Shown here one piece after another: positions 29,020-35,200 of a stretch of 64,000 bases of DNA. The DNA comes from an uncultured Verrucomicrobia subdivision 3 bacterium. Lineage in GTDB: Bacteria > Verrucomicrobiota > Verrucomicrobiia > Limisphaerales > UBA11358. Numbering within the stretch: the stretch's first letter is position 1; the number at the start of each line of letters is the position of its first letter. The stretch lies in contig CAINLR010000177.1 in NCBI GenBank assembly GCA_903850425.1, positions 1 through 64,000 of the forward strand, written 5' to 3'. The notes beneath the pieces were generated by a model. That model was not told where the DNA came from and did no database searches. It was given only the letters and a program-made list of their open reading frames with translations. Position numbers and translations under genes: made by a program.

Positions 29020-30395
29020 TGAAACGCACCATCATCATTTTGAGCGGTTGTCTGCTCGCGGGCTGCGCGCATTTTGAATCGCAGCCGTTGGCGCCGGACA
29101 AATCCGCGGCGCAACTGGAATCGCGCCGGCTGGAAGACGCCGGGCTCAAACTTTTTCTTCAGACCAATTCGATCAGCAAACCAACCAACTGGCCGCTGCC
29201 GCAATGGGATTTGGATTCGCTCACGCTGGCAGCGTTTTATTTTCATCCCAGCCTCCAGGTCGCGCGGGCGCAATGGCGCGAGGCGTTGGCCGGAATCAAA
29301 ACTGCGGCCGGCCGGCCCAATCCCACCGTGACCGTCGGCCCGGGTTACGATTTCAGCGCCTTGTCCGGGGTGAACCCGTGGCTGCCGTTTGGTTCGATGG
29401 ATGTGCCGATCGAGACAGCTGGCAAACGTGGCAAGCGCATGTCCCAGGCGGGGAAACGGGCCGAGGTTGCGCGCCAGAATTTCTTCGTGGCTGCGTGGTC
29501 GGTTCGGGCCAACGTGCGCGCCAGTCTGGTGGAATTCATTGTCGCCCGCGATCGGACGGTGCTGGTGGAAACACAGTTCACCGCCCAGTCGGAAATTTCA
29601 CGACGACAAGAACAGCGCCTGGCCGCCGGGGACATTTCCCGCGCCGAGGTGAACGTTTCGCGCATCGCGCTGGGCCGGCTGCAACTGGAGCTGGGTGACG
29701 CGCAAGCCAGGCGCGCCGAAGCGCGGGCGCAGTTGGCTGCGTCCATCGGTGTCCCGGCCCGCGCGCTGGACGGGGTGAAATTAGCTTTCAGCTTGGCGGC
29801 AAGTGCGCCGCACGATTTGACCGACGCGGCTGCCCGTCGCCTCGCGTTGTGCGGTCGCGCGGATGTGCGCGCGGCGCTCGCGGATTACGCGGCGGCGGAA
29901 GCGGCGCTGCGATTGGAGATCGCCAAACAATATCCGGACCTGCATCTGAATCCCGGCTATCAATTTGATCAGGGCGAACACAAATGGACGCTTGGCTTCA
30001 CGTTCGAACTGCCGTTGCTCAACCAGAACCAGGGGCCGATCGCCGAAGCCAGGGCGCAACGCGAAGTGGCAGCCGCGAAATTTGTCGCACGGCAGGCGGA
30101 GATCATCGGGGAGATTGACCGCGCCGTGGCGCAGTTTCGAGTCGCCAACGCGCAGCTGAAATCGAGCGGCGATTTTTACCGGGCCGCGGAACAACAGCAA
30201 CAGGCAGTGCGCGCGGGGCTCCAAGCCGGCGCCACCGATCACTTGGATTTGCTCAGCGGACAAATTGAATTTGCCGCCGCCGCGCTCGTTCGGCTGGAGG
30301 CCGAAACAAAATGGCAAACCGCCATTGGCGCACTTGAAAACGCGCTGCAACGTCCGACCGATTCCCTCGCCGCCTTGGATTCCAGCCAACCATGA
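29019..30395 (+). CDS. outer-membrane efflux lipoprotein, TolC/CusC-like
   Basis: The start is GTG 29019, overlapping the last base of the kinase stop. The 458-residue protein has a lipobox (LSGCLLAGC) and the long helical repeats of the outer-membrane efflux protein family, once per half: LTLAAFYFHPSLQVARAQW with A-G-R-P-N-P-T-V-T-V-G-P-G-Y in the first, and RLALCGRADVRAALADYAAA with Y-P-D-L-H-L-N-P-G-Y-Q-F in the second. It should form the trimeric outer-membrane duct of the RND pump encoded downstream. It overlaps the adaptor gene by 4 bases. Confidence 0.87.
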   Translation: MKRTIIILSGCLLAGCAHFESQPLAPDKSAAQLESRRLEDAGLKLFLQTNSISKPTNWPLPQWDLDSLTLAAFYFHPSLQVARAQWREALAGIKTAAGRPNPTVTVGPGYDFSALSGVNPWLPFGSMDVPIETAGKRGKRMSQAGKRAEVARQNFFVAAWSVRANVRASLVEFIVARDRTVLVETQFTAQSEISRRQEQRLAAGDISRAEVNVSRIALGRLQLELGDAQARRAEARAQLAASIGVPARALDGVKLAFSLAASAPHDLTDAAARRLALCGRADVRAALADYAAAEAALRLEIAKQYPDLHLNPGYQFDQGEHKWTLGFTFELPLLNQNQGPIAEARAQREVAAAKFVARQAEIIGEIDRAVAQFRVANAQLKSSGDFYRAAEQQQQAVRAGLQAGATDHLDLLSGQIEFAAAALVRLEAETKWQTAIGALENALQRPTDSLAALDSSQP

Positions 30396-31354
30396 AAAGA
30401 AATTTTCTCACAACTGTTGCCGCCTTCGCGCTGGTTCTGGCGCTGGCCGGCTGCGCCAAATCTGCGGATGAAAAGGTGAAGGCCGACGAGAAACCTTCGG
30501 CAGCCGCCGAACCAGGCGTGAAGCTGGAGGCCGAAACGCAAACGCGCCTCGGGCTCGCCACCACCAATCTCCCCGCCGCCGAATGGACTCCGGAAATCAA
30601 GGGGTTTGGGCGGGTCGTGGATGCCGCCAGCCTCGCGGCGGCGGTGGGCGAATTTGCGGCCGCGCGGTCAGCGCTGGAGGTTTCCACCAAGGAACTGGCG
30701 CGGGTGAAGACGCTGACCGGGCAAGGCAACGCGTCGGACCGGGCCCTGCAAACGGCCGACGCGGCCATGAATCACGACCAGTTGGCTTTTGTCGCCGCCC
30801 GGGCAAAATTGGAAATGAACTGGGGCAAGCGGCTCGCGGAAAATCCGGCGGACATGCTCCAGCGGTTGGAGGATGGTCAAAGCGCTTTGGTGCGAATTGA
30901 TTTGGCGGCTGGCGAGCAGTTGCCATCACCCGGCGCGGCGCGCATCGCTCCGCTCAACCAGGCGGCGACCGTTGTCACCGCCGAATTTTTCGACGCCACG
31001 GCGGGAGTTGATCCGCAGACGCAGTCGCAGAGTTTTCTGTTCGTCGCCAAGTCCGGCGCGCTCACGCCCGGCGCGGCCGTCACGGGTTTGCTAAAGACTT
31101 CCGGCGCGTCCATCAGCGGCGTGGTCGTGCCGGCGTCGGCGGTGCTGCGCCACGAAGGCAAAGGCTGGATTTATGTGCAGACGGAAACCAACCGGTTTGC
31201 GCGGACGGAAATTCCGCTCGACCGCTTGACGGACGGCGGCTGGTTTGTTTCGGAAAATGTCTGGGCGACGAACCGTATCGTCATCAACGGTGCACAGACG
31301 CTTTTGTCCGCCGAACTGGGCGGCGGCGGTTTCAACACGGGCAATCGCGACTAG
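30392..31354 (+). CDS. efflux RND transporter periplasmic adaptor (lipoprotein)
   Basis: A 320-residue protein with a lipoprotein signal (FALVLALAGC). Residues about 45-75 hold the strand R-L-G-L-A-T-T-N-L-P that opens CusB/HlyD-type adaptors, then an alpha hairpin (about 88-150, R-V-K-T-L-T-G-Q-G-N-A-S-D-R-A-L) and a beta-barrel/membrane-proximal part ending in VVVPASAVLRHEGKGWIYVQ and VINGAQTLLSAEL. It links the pump to the outer-membrane duct. It is short for the family, and a distinct lipoyl half is hard to see. The pump gene should follow directly but is 720 bases away because the DUF559 cassette lies between. Confidence 0.82.
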   Translation: MKRNFLTTVAAFALVLALAGCAKSADEKVKADEKPSAAAEPGVKLEAETQTRLGLATTNLPAAEWTPEIKGFGRVVDAASLAAAVGEFAAARSALEVSTKELARVKTLTGQGNASDRALQTADAAMNHDQLAFVAARAKLEMNWGKRLAENPADMLQRLEDGQSALVRIDLAAGEQLPSPGAARIAPLNQAATVVTAEFFDATAGVDPQTQSQSFLFVAKSGALTPGAAVTGLLKTSGASISGVVVPASAVLRHEGKGWIYVQTETNRFARTEIPLDRLTDGGWFVSENVWATNRIVINGAQTLLSAELGGGGFNTGNRD

Positions 31355-31431
31355 CAGGTGATTTATTGATGGCATGAACTTCGATTTTTCAAACGGCAAT
31401 CGGATTTTTCAGCGGCGCACGCTGGCCGTCC

Positions 31432-31471
31432 CCTCTCCCCTCAACGGGGAGAGGGCTAGGGTGAGGGGTGG
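31432..31471 (+). repeat. left inverted repeat of DUF559 cassette
   Basis: Forty bases. The first part forms a hairpin: CCTCTCCCC pairs with GGGGAGAGG around a TCAAC loop, followed by a G-rich arm AGGGTGAGGGGTGG. The TA of CTAGGG at 31456-31460 supplies the stop codon of the DUF559 gene; the right copy has CC there. Confidence 0.8.
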
Positions 31472-31890
31472 TCAGGTGTTGGAGGTTCCCATTTCTTCAA
31501 GTGTGTCGGCAGGCGAGTTGGTATTTCCGGCAGAACATTATCCTGATGCGGCGCGCGTGACTGCAAGTCCGCCCAAATCGGTTCGCGCACGAACCGAACA
31601 TCCTGCAATTGCGAATTCCAAAACCGCCGCGTCTGGATGTTTCGCGATTTCAAATACTCTTCCCGCAGTTTGTCGTGCGCTTGTTGCTCCGGAAATCCGT
31701 GCTGGCCGCCGTCCAGTTCGAGGTTGTAGCGCGCCTCGGCACAGAAAAAATCCAGATAGGATGCGCCGACTTGGTGCTGACGCAGAAAATTGTAGGCAGA
31801 GAAACGACGGTCGCGGAGAATCGCCCACAGCTTTTTTTCCGCCCAAGTGGATTTCTTCCGCAGGGCGCGGGACAGGGAAACCGGATTCAT
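31456..31890 (-). CDS. DUF559 (Vsr-like fold) endonuclease-domain protein
   Basis: A 144-residue protein with the DUF559 pattern: LRKKSTWAEKKLWAILRDRR (about 10-29, with the conserved A-E), FLRQHQVGASYLDFFCAEA (about 36-54) and YNLELDGGQHGFPEQQ (about 55-70). The D of Y-L-D-F and the E of L-E-L-D-G-G-Q-H are the presumed PD-(D/E)xK-type metal ligands, as in very-short-patch-repair endonucleases. The nuclease activity of this family is predicted from fold. The last residues (PDHPSP) and the stop are encoded by the left inverted repeat, so gene and repeat are one unit. It is transcribed against the efflux operon. Confidence 0.8.
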   Translation of the reverse strand: MNPVSLSRALRKKSTWAEKKLWAILRDRRFSAYNFLRQHQVGASYLDFFCAEARYNLELDGGQHGFPEQQAHDKLREEYLKSRNIQTRRFWNSQLQDVRFVREPIWADLQSRAPHQDNVLPEIPTRLPTHLKKWEPPTPDHPSP

Positions 31891-31943
31891 TACGGAATGA
31901 TTTAACGGGCCGGCGGTTTCAATTCAAGCGTTGCTTTTTATTC

Positions 31944-31983
31944 CCACCCCTCACCCTGGCCCTCTCCCCGTTGAGGGGAGAGG
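31944..31983 (-). repeat. right inverted repeat of DUF559 cassette
   Basis: The reverse complement of 31944-31983 equals 31432-31471 except at one base (GGGCCAGGG instead of GGGCTAGGG). It contains the same CCTCTCCCC/GGGGAGAGG hairpin. Confidence 0.8.
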
Positions 31984-32074
31984 AATTGGCTTTGGATGAC
32001 TCGCTGATTACGAGCGTCTCGATGCCTGTGACCGTGGCATCCACGCGAATGTTTTCTGGCAATTACTTTGCATC

Positions 32075-35000
32075 ATGCTGAGGCAACTCGTTGAAAATTC
32101 CCTGCGGTTGCGCGGCGTGGTCATCACGCTGGCGATTGCGCTCATTGTTTACGGGCTGTTTGTCACGTCGCGGGCCAAGCTGGATGTCTTCCCGGAATTC
32201 GTCCAGCCGCAGGCCACGGTGCAGACGGAAGCGCCGGGTCTCGCGCCGGAACAAGTGGAAACACTCGTCACGCGGCCGGTCGAAAATGCCTTGAACGGCG
32301 CGGGCAATCTGGATTCCATCCGCTCCGAATCCATTCAAGGCTTGTCCGTCGTCACGGCGGTGTTCAAGGAAGGCACGGATATTTATCTCGCGCGACAGAT
32401 GCTCGCCGAACGGCTCGCGCAACTGGCGGGCGATCTGCCTGCCGGCGTGCAATCGCCGAAGATGGAGCCGCTCACGTCCTCGACGATGGATCTGCTGAAG
32501 TTCGGCTTGATCTCGGAGAAGTTGTCGCCGATGGAGCTGCGGACCTTTGCGGAGTGGACGGTGCGCCCGCGCATGTTGTCGGTGCAAGGCGTGGCGGCGG
32601 TGAAAGTTTTCGGCGGTGAAGTGCGGCAGTTGCAAATTCAAGTGAAGCCGGAACGACTGCTCGCGTTTGGAATTTCCATCTCCGACGTATTGAATGCCGC
32701 GCGCGAGGCGACCGGCGTGCGCGGCGCGGGCTTTGTGGAAACGGCGGCGCAGCGAATCGTGTTGCAGACCGAAGGCCAGTCGCTCACCGCAGAATTTCTC
32801 GGCGAAGTCGTCGTAACCCAGCGCGACGGACGCAGCGTGCGCTTAAAGGACGTGGCGAACGTCGTTGCGAGCGCCGAACCGAAATTTGGCGATGCGATCA
32901 TCAACGGCAAACCGGGCGTGCTGATGACCACGTCGAGTCAATACGGTGCCAACACGATGGAAGTGACGCTGGACCTGGAGCGCGCGTTGGAGGAAATGAA
33001 GCCGGTGTTTGCGGCGGAGAACATTGCGTTCGTTCCCGCGCTGCACCGGCCGGCGACGTTCATCGAACACGCGCTCCACAACATGAAATGGTCGCTGCTG
33101 CTCGGCGCGTTGTTCGTGGCCGTGGTGCTGTTTTTGTTTTTGCTCGACCTGCGCACGGCCTTGATTGCGTTCCTCGCGATCCCGCTGTCGTTGCTGGCGG
33201 CGATCATCGTGCTCGACCATTTTGGCGTGACGCTCAATACGATGACGCTCGGCGGACTCGCCGCCGTGCTGGGCGTGGTGGTGGATGACGCGATCATCAA
33301 CGTCGAAAACATTCTGCGCCGGCTCCGGGAAAATTCTGCGCGACTTTCGCCGCGCCCGTTACTCGCAGTGATTCTCGCTGCCTCGCTCGAAGTGCGCAGC
33401 GCGGTGGTCTATGCCACCTTCATCGTCGCGCTCGTTTTCCTGCCGGTGTTGACCATGAGCGGTCTGCAAGGACGATTCTTCGCGCCGCTAGGTGTCGCTT
33501 TCATACTCGCCAATCTCGCCTCGCTTGTCGTCGCGCTAACAGTGACGCCAACGCTTTGTTACACCTTGCTGTCGCGTTCTGGACCGCATGAAGAGCCGGC
33601 TTATTTGCGGCGGCTGAAACAAGTTCATCAACGGACTTTGCAGCGCGTGAGCCGGTGGCCGAAAACGATCATCGCGATTGTGCTGGCCTTGTTCATTGCG
33701 GCCCTGACGACGCTGCCGTATTTCGGCGGCGAGCTTTTGCCGGATTTTCGCGAAGGTCACTTTGTCGTGGGCATCACGATGGCCCCGGGCACTTCCTTGA
33801 CCGAAATGAAACGGCTCGGCACGCAGATTTCGGTGGAACTGCTGAAAAATCCGAATCTTCAAAGCGTCGAGGAACAAATCGGGCGCGCGGAGGGCGGCGA
33901 AGACACTTGGGGCACGCATCGCGGCGAAATGCACATCGAGCTGAAACCCACGGGCGGCGAGGCCCAGGAAAAAGTGCAGGAAGAAATTCGCGACACGATG
34001 GCGAAATTTCCCGGGGTCCAAAGCGAGGTGCTGACCTTCCTGGGCGATCGCATCGGCGAAACCATTGCCGGCGAAACGGCGCAAGTGGTCGTGAATATTT
34101 TTGGCGATGATCTGGATGTGCTGGATGCCAAAGCAAAGGAAGTCGCGGCCGCCTTGAACCAGGTTCCTGGCGCAGCGGACGTGCAGGTTTCCGCGCCGCC
34201 CGGCGCGCCGAGCATGATGGTGCAGTTGCGGCCCGAACGGCTGACGCAATTTGGTTTTCGCCCGGTGGAAGTGCTCGCAGCGGTGCAGACCGCGTATCAA
34301 GGCGAGGTCGTGGCGCAGACTTACGAAGGCGACAAAGTTTTTAACGTCGCCGTGATCTTGGAGCCATCAGCGCGGCAGCAGCCGGAAACCGTCGGCGACC
34401 TGCTCGTCAGCAATGCGCAAGGCCGGCAGATGCCCTTGAAGCAATTGGCGAATGTGTTTCTGACGACCGGACGCTTCGCCATTTTGCACGACGGCGCGCG
34501 GCGGCGGCAGACGATCACCTGCAATCCGGCGGGGCGCGACGTGGCGTCGTTTGTGGCTGACGCAAAAAAACAGATCGCGACGCAGGTGCAATTTCCGGCG
34601 GGTGTTTATGCGGTGTTCAGCGGCGCGGCGGAAGAACAGAAAGAGGCCCAGCGGGAATTACTGCTGCATTCGCTCGTGGCGGCGGCGGGCGTGATTTTGC
34701 TGCTCGCCATGGTTTTTCGCAAAGCCAGCCATCTATTGCTTGTGCTGGCAAACCTGCCGTTTGCATTGGTCGGGGGCGTGCTGGCGATTTTTCTCGTTGG
34801 TTATTTTGGTGAGGCCGGGCGCGGCTCACTCTCACTCGGAACCCTCGTCGGCTTCGTCACGTTGTTCGGCATCACGATGCGGAATTCCATCATGATGATT
34901 TCGCATTTCGAACATTTGGTGAACGAAGAAGGGCTGCCGTGGGGTCTCGAAACCGCAACGCGCGGTGCCACCGAACGGCTGGTGCCGATTTTGATGACCG

Positions 35001-35200
35001 CGCTCGTCACGGGGCTCGGTTTGCTTCCTTTGGCCATCGGTAGCGGCGAAGCGGGCCGCGAAATCGAAGGCCCGATGGCGATCGTGATTCTGGGCGGACT
35101 GGTGACCTCGACGCTGTTGAACCTGCTCGTGCTGCCGACGCTGGCGCTGCGCTATGGAGAGTTTGGTGAAGCCAGCGGCGCAAAAACTCGCCCCACTTGA
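32075..35200 (+). CDS. efflux RND transporter permease, CusA/CzcA-like
   Basis: A 1041-residue pump of usual family length. It starts with LRLRGVVITLAIALIVYGLF (first membrane helix), has two large periplasmic loops (about 35-335 and 540-835) and two sets of membrane helices (about 336-535 and 850-1030), including GVVVDDAIINVENILRRLRE (about 405-425) with the acidic residues of the proton relay. VFPEFVQPQATVQTEAPG fits the heavy-metal-efflux subfamily. It should export cations or small molecules using the proton gradient, together with the adaptor and duct upstream. The substrate cannot be read from the sequence. The DUF559 cassette precedes it, so its expression may depend on read-through. 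Confidence 0.9.
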   Translation: MLRQLVENSLRLRGVVITLAIALIVYGLFVTSRAKLDVFPEFVQPQATVQTEAPGLAPEQVETLVTRPVENALNGAGNLDSIRSESIQGLSVVTAVFKEGTDIYLARQMLAERLAQLAGDLPAGVQSPKMEPLTSSTMDLLKFGLISEKLSPMELRTFAEWTVRPRMLSVQGVAAVKVFGGEVRQLQIQVKPERLLAFGISISDVLNAAREATGVRGAGFVETAAQRIVLQTEGQSLTAEFLGEVVVTQRDGRSVRLKDVANVVASAEPKFGDAIINGKPGVLMTTSSQYGANTMEVTLDLERALEEMKPVFAAENIAFVPALHRPATFIEHALHNMKWSLLLGALFVAVVLFLFLLDLRTALIAFLAIPLSLLAAIIVLDHFGVTLNTMTLGGLAAVLGVVVDDAIINVENILRRLRENSARLSPRPLLAVILAASLEVRSAVVYATFIVALVFLPVLTMSGLQGRFFAPLGVAFILANLASLVVALTVTPTLCYTLLSRSGPHEEPAYLRRLKQVHQRTLQRVSRWPKTIIAIVLALFIAALTTLPYFGGELLPDFREGHFVVGITMAPGTSLTEMKRLGTQISVELLKNPNLQSVEEQIGRAEGGEDTWGTHRGEMHIELKPTGGEAQEKVQEEIRDTMAKFPGVQSEVLTFLGDRIGETIAGETAQVVVNIFGDDLDVLDAKAKEVAAALNQVPGAADVQVSAPPGAPSMMVQLRPERLTQFGFRPVEVLAAVQTAYQGEVVAQTYEGDKVFNVAVILEPSARQQPETVGDLLVSNAQGRQMPLKQLANVFLTTGRFAILHDGARRRQTITCNPAGRDVASFVADAKKQIATQVQFPAGVYAVFSGAAEEQKEAQRELLLHSLVAAAGVILLLAMVFRKASHLLLVLANLPFALVGGVLAIFLVGYFGEAGRGSLSLGTLVGFVTLFGITMRNSIMMISHFEHLVNEEGLPWGLETATRGATERLVPILMTALVTGLGLLPLAIGSGEAGREIEGPMAIVILGGLVTSTLLNLLVLPTLALRYGEFGEASGAKTRPT

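Follow-up and report, generated by a model that had tools for sequence, protein, structure and literature searches.

Within the window, as the whole stretch of 64,000 nucleotides analyzed here is called (taken from an assembly of 6.9 Mb in 197 contigs), a cassette of 552 bp lies between the adaptor and pump genes of an efflux operon (Table 1). It carries at its ends two inverted arms of 40 nt each (31432-31471 and 31944-31983), complementary at 39 of 40 positions and separated by 472 nt. Each end is a hairpin with a 5-nt loop, the stem being 10 bp on the left and 9 bp on the right; the z-score of their folding energy is just -1.9, because the composition itself is GC-rich. The sequence CCTCTCCCC occurs four times in the window, always within the cassette, compared with a mean of 0.26 in shuffled sequence. 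The single open reading frame between the arms is recognized as Pfam DUF559 (E 2.9e-23), so the arrangement outlined in the preliminary description, hairpin ends around one DUF559 gene, was confirmed. On the opposite strand, a 235-aa open frame (31374-32081, +) spans the whole cassette and is probably a by-product of composition. The same description drew attention to the stop codon of the gene, made inside the left repeat by the only mismatch between the arms. The feature is present: the C-terminal residues HPSP and the TAG stop lie in the repeat, and CTA instead of CCA creates the stop. Its importance was not upheld. The mismatch falls in the 3-nt spacer, a part that varies among members of the motif family, and the stop lies inside the element in only 8 of 52 relatives; a meaningful role is ruled out on these two grounds, and the mismatch is regarded as incidental.

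Table 1. Features of the cassette and of the neighboring efflux genes, in window coordinates.
Feature	Position	Strand	Remarks
Efflux adaptor gene, upstream of the insertion	30392..31354	+	orthologues in congeners
Outer flank of left end, probably part of the element	31404..31431	+	77% identity over window 31404-31467 to a solo-motif flank at G000:C70
Left hairpin	31431..31455	+	arm CCCTCTCCCC, loop TCAAC, arm GGGGAGAGGG
Left spacer	31456-31458	+	CTA
Left tail, proposed third strand	31459..31468	+	GGGTGAGGGG; mirror of 3' arm, 9/10 identical, tenth T over A
DUF559 gene (YcjD-type, Vsr-fold), 144 aa	31456..31890	-	stop codon 31456-31458 in left repeat
Right tail	31947..31956	-	GGGTGAGGGG on minus strand
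Right spacer	31957-31959	-
Right hairpin	31960..31983	-	inverted copy of left hairpin
RND-type pump gene, downstream of the insertion	32075..35200	+	orthologues in congeners

The insertion and its nuclease

Sixteen congener orthologues of the pump gene, 66-83% identical, have the adaptor gene directly upstream. In 15 of them, the gap from adaptor stop to pump start is 1-13 nt, as expected from the earlier claim that these genes normally touch, and in the remaining one it is about 115 nt; here it is 720 nt. Because the congener gaps are short, the DNA between adaptor and pump is an insertion in this lineage. It is absent from all 16 congener orthologues, so the gene is not fixed at this site, and the empty sites contain no triplex motif. 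The adaptor–pump interval also includes DNA outside the hairpins, about 77 nt to the left and 91 nt to the right. Since the outer left flank recurs beside a solo motif (Table 1), the element probably reaches past the hairpins, whose edges would then not be its true borders; the view of a cassette bounded by its palindromes is thus probably incorrect. No target-site duplication, as expected for a DDE-type insertion sequence or MITE, was seen at three E. coli loci or at dispersed pairs, among which precise filled/empty pairs were few, and neither an excision product nor a precise border was found at the E. coli loci or dispersed pairs examined.

The window protein scores 82.3 bits against the DUF559/YcjD family (PF04480; cut-off 20.6), compared with 167 bits for K-12 YcjD, and its closest named relatives are in Verrucomicrobiota assemblies. 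The Pfam scan of the protein returned DUF559 only and no Y1 (HUH) domain (PF01797); the genes read next to it are efflux genes. The nuclease may be active, because the conserved LDF, ELDGGQH, and RFWN motifs are retained. Its structure model (mean pLDDT 77) best matches NGO0050 of Neisseria gonorrhoeae (PDB 3hrl; Z 14.1, rmsd 1.9 over 93), followed by the homing endonuclease I-Bth0305I (Z 13.0) and Vsr (1cw0, Z 10.2; 1vsr, Z 9.8). The model thus favors the Vsr-like fold that had been proposed from the sequence. An earlier study had assigned YcjD to the PD-(D/E)XK superfamily and detected Vsr as its relative (PMC1189080). NGO0050 and YcjD share family and fold with the window protein, and their genes also adjoin motifs of the kind described below. 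However, they are on record as proteins of unknown function or putative endonucleases.

The ends as triplex motifs

The cassette ends are assigned by sequence to the intrastrand triplex motif (TM/PIT) repeat family, known from E. coli: they contain the TM_ECO/PIT palindrome CCCTCTCC...GGAGAGGG and, behind it, the spacer and the tail of purines. Holder and co-workers listed 23 copies in K-12 and showed that TM_ECO, the copy tested there rather than the window end, forms a stable triplex in vitro, whereas footprinting revealed no stable triplex in vivo (Holder et al., 2015, PMC4666352). They reported that the motifs were not associated with transposons, phages, or plasmids and that their surroundings held no mobility genes; earlier TM/PIT work by Hoyne et al. 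is cited there. The window ends and the published repeats have in common the palindrome, spacer, and tail, the occurrence as inverted pairs, the intergenic dispersal, and the polymorphism among strains. They differ in that the published repeat is an orphan without a mobility gene, while here it flanks a nuclease gene. The palindromes had initially been taken as the cassette’s own. This is ruled out, as 34 strict copies are present in the window genome and 0-238 in its relatives; the ends are members of a widespread family in which the tail, too, is a structural part.

The tail deserves closer consideration. Read in reverse, it repeats the 3' arm except for a single T over A. A T·AT triad is permitted in the purine triplex motif, in which a reverse-Hoogsteen third strand needs mirror symmetry. 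Among 131 distinct elements, the mirror match averages 8.96/10, compared with 8.42 ± 0.05 for shuffled tails (z = 11.4). An A at arm position 3 is followed by the tail in 62% against 1%, and at arm position 9 the figures are 80% against 4%. The mirror relation of stem and tail is therefore maintained by covariation. A direct-repeat relation of tail and arm was considered and rejected as weaker than the mirror relation; a protein-dimer site would instead give inverted or direct symmetry. The design is not tied to one sequence. The N. gonorrhoeae element has the stem GGGAGAGAG and the tail GAGAGAGGG, and some DUF559 genes outside this order retain the mirror design with other letters, such as TTCCCCTCCC-TTGA-GGGGAGGGGAA-TTG-AAGGGGTG at L168.

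The motif and stand-alone DUF559 genes

A survey of 97 relatives provided 61 stand-alone DUF559 genes and ten DUF559 domains fused to large proteins. A motif was found within 600 bp of 60 of the 61 stand-alone genes, compared with one of the ten fused domains, and on both sides in 47 of 58. The strict pattern accompanies 53 of the 61, where 1.3 would be predicted from motif density. A sequence-independent search for exact mirror triplexes recovered 52 of the 61 loci, but none of 29 pump loci and one of the ten fused domains; reversed-pattern controls gave 0-1 matches per genome. Copy number is also linked to the gene. The median is 44 motifs per genome with a full-length DUF559 gene and 4.5 without (p = 2e-9), and genomes devoid of motifs number 0 of 37 in the first group and 11 of 60 in the rest. 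The link is seen within the genus alone (p = 1.2e-4) and in a set of one genome per family (p = 1e-5), in tests that treat genomes as independent. The record of 238 copies belongs to a genome (G066) whose DUF559 gene lies inside a motif array (L032) and in which Y1 transposases gave no match. Solo motifs also occur in genomes without DUF559, with up to 83 copies in one (G085) that has only weak DUF559 matches; yet the link to DUF559 is very strong. Neither objection foreseen in the preliminary description, repeats around many unrelated genes with no DUF559 link or a gene fixed at this site in all relatives, applies.

A general link of DUF559 domains to the motifs is ruled out for the fused and the long types. 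The long class, of about 300 aa, reaches ten or so genes per genome in the phylum of genome G097 (L174-L195). Exact triplexes lie beside none of 22 long-type genes of that phylum, in which four of eight short YcjD-type genes have one, and the long class probably does something else.

Outside Verrucomicrobiota, Proteobacteria, cyanobacteria, and Deinococcota were sampled through eight loci of a plasmid collection and E. coli genomes. The DUF559 genes of E. coli, S. meliloti pSymB, Synechocystis, and N. gonorrhoeae were found to have the motif in their flanks; in Azospirillum the flanks hold sequence-divergent triplexes, and in Shinella they hold hairpins that lack a clear tail. As judged from these flanks, the pairing is common to Verrucomicrobiota, Pseudomonadota, Cyanobacteriota, and Deinococcota. 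On a Deinococcus plasmid, the DUF559 gene (L132:2977-3330) lies between paaD and paaZ with divergent mirror triplexes on both sides, a second cassette inside an operon (paa). After the N. gonorrhoeae gene comes a tandem array of 281 bp whose units each contain triplex motifs (L130:3484-4178). In E. coli K-12, ycjD itself is a DUF559 gene (L140:1784-2137; NC_000913.3 1351407-1351760) and adjoins catalogued motif no. 9. It is located between sapF and fabI, its C-terminus RRSPSP-stop is read from a second, degenerate motif, and the region is covered in 3365 of 5426 complete genomes. Strains that have the eefRABCD efflux operon at this position are without ycjD (PMC12817139).

The type of hairpin follows the protein. 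Hairpin distance tracks protein distance (Mantel r 0.42 upstream and 0.54 downstream, 0 of 2000 permutations), and the result remains 0 of 2000 for proteins less than 60% identical from different genomes. A protein shares its 10-nt downstream arm with its closest counterpart from another genome in 26 of 52 cases, where 5.6 are expected, and within one genome several DUF559 genes each have a hairpin type of their own (G035, G021). The exact window hairpin was found in none of 48 congeners. It occurs in 38 copies in G086, 26 in the L044 genome, and 3 in the L043 genome, whose DUF559 genes carry it. G065 and the L047 genome hold it as well, with other hairpins at the DUF559 genes seen there, and so does G085 with its weak DUF559 matches. 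From the absence in congeners and the copies in distant genomes, the distribution of this subtype is read as patchy rather than vertical. Gene and hairpin thus form a linked, covarying unit, and the early suggestion that nuclease and palindromic ends travel together is borne out across phyla. It should be kept in mind that linked sequences are co-inherited, and co-evolution alone does not prove recognition.

Many copies have no gene. Several of the strict matches in the window genome are inverted pairs about 105 nt apart, which can be aligned with one another; in other genomes, hairpin, tail, and spacing are conserved among pairs whose spacers and flanks vary, an arrangement reminiscent of REPINs. 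Among E. coli strains, K-12 and O55:H7 carry the hrpB-mrcB pair, NQ3 lacks it, and in UTAK-23 it has collapsed to a single hairpin; at alx-sstT, ESM2.2 has one motif in place of the pair, and AVS0528 has no motif at tauD-hemB. The reduction of E. coli pairs to single hairpins proceeds via deletions between the like arms of both copies (L146, L147). In other E. coli strains, ORFs of about 100 aa without a Pfam match replace the motif at alx-sstT and zntA-tusA (L149:506-808 and L150:484-792).

How the motifs may spread

We consider it probable that the cassette is a gene-bearing selfish element whose Vsr-fold nuclease recognizes the folded ends and spreads them. It consists of a stand-alone DUF559 nuclease (YcjD-type) between two inverted triplex-forming palindromes. 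In each of these, a pyrimidine arm and its purine complement enclose a loop, and a spacer of 3 nt leads to the purine tail. Since the tail mirrors the purine arm, a single strand could form a hairpin to which the tail adds a third strand, in reverse-Hoogsteen G·GC, A·AT, and T·AT triads. When the ends are single-stranded, for example at replication forks, the nuclease would bind this fold and nick at or beside it, and the whole cassette would be copied or moved. Acting in trans, it might do likewise with pairs that lack the gene and with single hairpins. In this view, the dispersed TM/PIT repeats would be non-autonomous progeny of the nuclease, as REPs are of RAYTs. While the co-travel of gene and hairpin is a matter of observation, we infer cleavage and transposition, together with the single-stranded intermediate. 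This model is the best of those considered because hairpin abundance, type, and placement follow DUF559, and Y1 is uncorrelated once DUF559 is allowed for. The Y1 transposase as the real mobilizer is disfavored by this lack of partial correlation and by the missing Y1 match in G066, the genome richest in motifs.

The analogy to REP/RAYT systems was drawn in the preliminary description and is well founded in several respects. Both have small palindromes that occur as inverted pairs and as many solo copies, and in both the repeats flank a small nuclease gene to which their copy number is tied. However, a Vsr-fold PD-(D/E)XK-like enzyme is found here in place of an HUH/Y1 enzyme, and a triplex tail in place of the tag. 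A GTAG-type tag at the palindrome foot is reportedly part of the REP definition (PMC3733652); at this position, the cassette has the spacer CTA or CCA and the tail GGGTGAGGGG. The system works like REP/RAYT but is not a member of it, because both the Y1 domain and the GTAG tag are missing. Neither its enzyme class nor its DNA structure fits a known dispersal system.

The main rival is homing, in which the palindromes spread by other means and a homing-like DUF559 gene inserts between the halves of existing triplex pairs, the ends being its target. The nearest characterized fold after NGO0050 is indeed that of I-Bth0305I, an enzyme with a role in mobile DNA. Gene-less pairs with inward tails exist (E. 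coli hrpB-mrcB; the L044 genome), the cassette resembles such a pair with a gene inside, and solo motifs are found without DUF559. However, a shared target would be expected for all invaders, yet each DUF559 clade has its own hairpin type and several types coexist in one genome. Moreover, motif number rises with DUF559 while no other mobilizer is apparent, and the congener empty sites in this operon have no motif. Homing is considered unlikely. The cassette also appears to differ from the Vsr-like homing endonucleases in its setting: neither an intron nor an intein was seen around the gene, which is placed in intergenic DNA with palindromes on both sides, and the insertion separates two intact genes.

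It is less likely still that the nuclease does housekeeping work, repairing or resolving replication-blocking triplexes or correcting mismatches as Vsr does, with the motifs serving as regulation or as a testing ground and nothing selfish involved. Such a role could be supported by the Vsr fold, by the instability of TM loci in E. coli (PMC4666352), and by the DUF559 protein VsrA of Caulobacter, which is linked to SOS and causes DNA damage in a methyltransferase mutant (PMC12907096). However, the gene is patchy, occurs several times per genome with different flanking hairpins, and sits inside unrelated operons of single lineages, and this role leaves inverted flanks of matched type unexplained. 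The idea that DUF559 is a bystander, one of many genes caught between motifs recombining among themselves, agrees with the collapse of E. coli pairs through deletions between copies and with the inheritance of DNA adjoining a gene along with it, but is already disfavored and highly improbable given the copy-number link and the same protein family at the motifs across Verrucomicrobiota, alpha-, beta-, and gammaproteobacteria, cyanobacteria, and Deinococcota.

Extended beyond this cassette, the selfish-element model would imply a new class of mobile element, in which a stand-alone Vsr-fold nuclease recognizes intramolecular triplex ends and spreads them in trans, the TM/PIT repeats of E. coli, Neisseria, and cyanobacteria being its non-autonomous progeny. 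This wider proposal is tentative, and we regard it as about evenly balanced. Its parts were each known before; the link between DUF559 and the motif was not found in a literature search that covered no preprints and only a minority of subscription journals, and none of the papers covered connects DUF559 with repeats of palindromic or triplex type. Catalogues of TM/PIT repeats exist for hundreds of genomes, and the repeats have been tied to genome instability without an enzyme, for which DUF559, found in E. coli K-12 itself, is now a candidate. If the proposal is correct, a second, unrelated enzyme class would be added to the REP/RAYT logic, and a large family of unknown function, with a structure already solved, would gain a function. 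The mirror covariation would, in turn, be evolutionary evidence for a DNA triplex as a selected biological structure.
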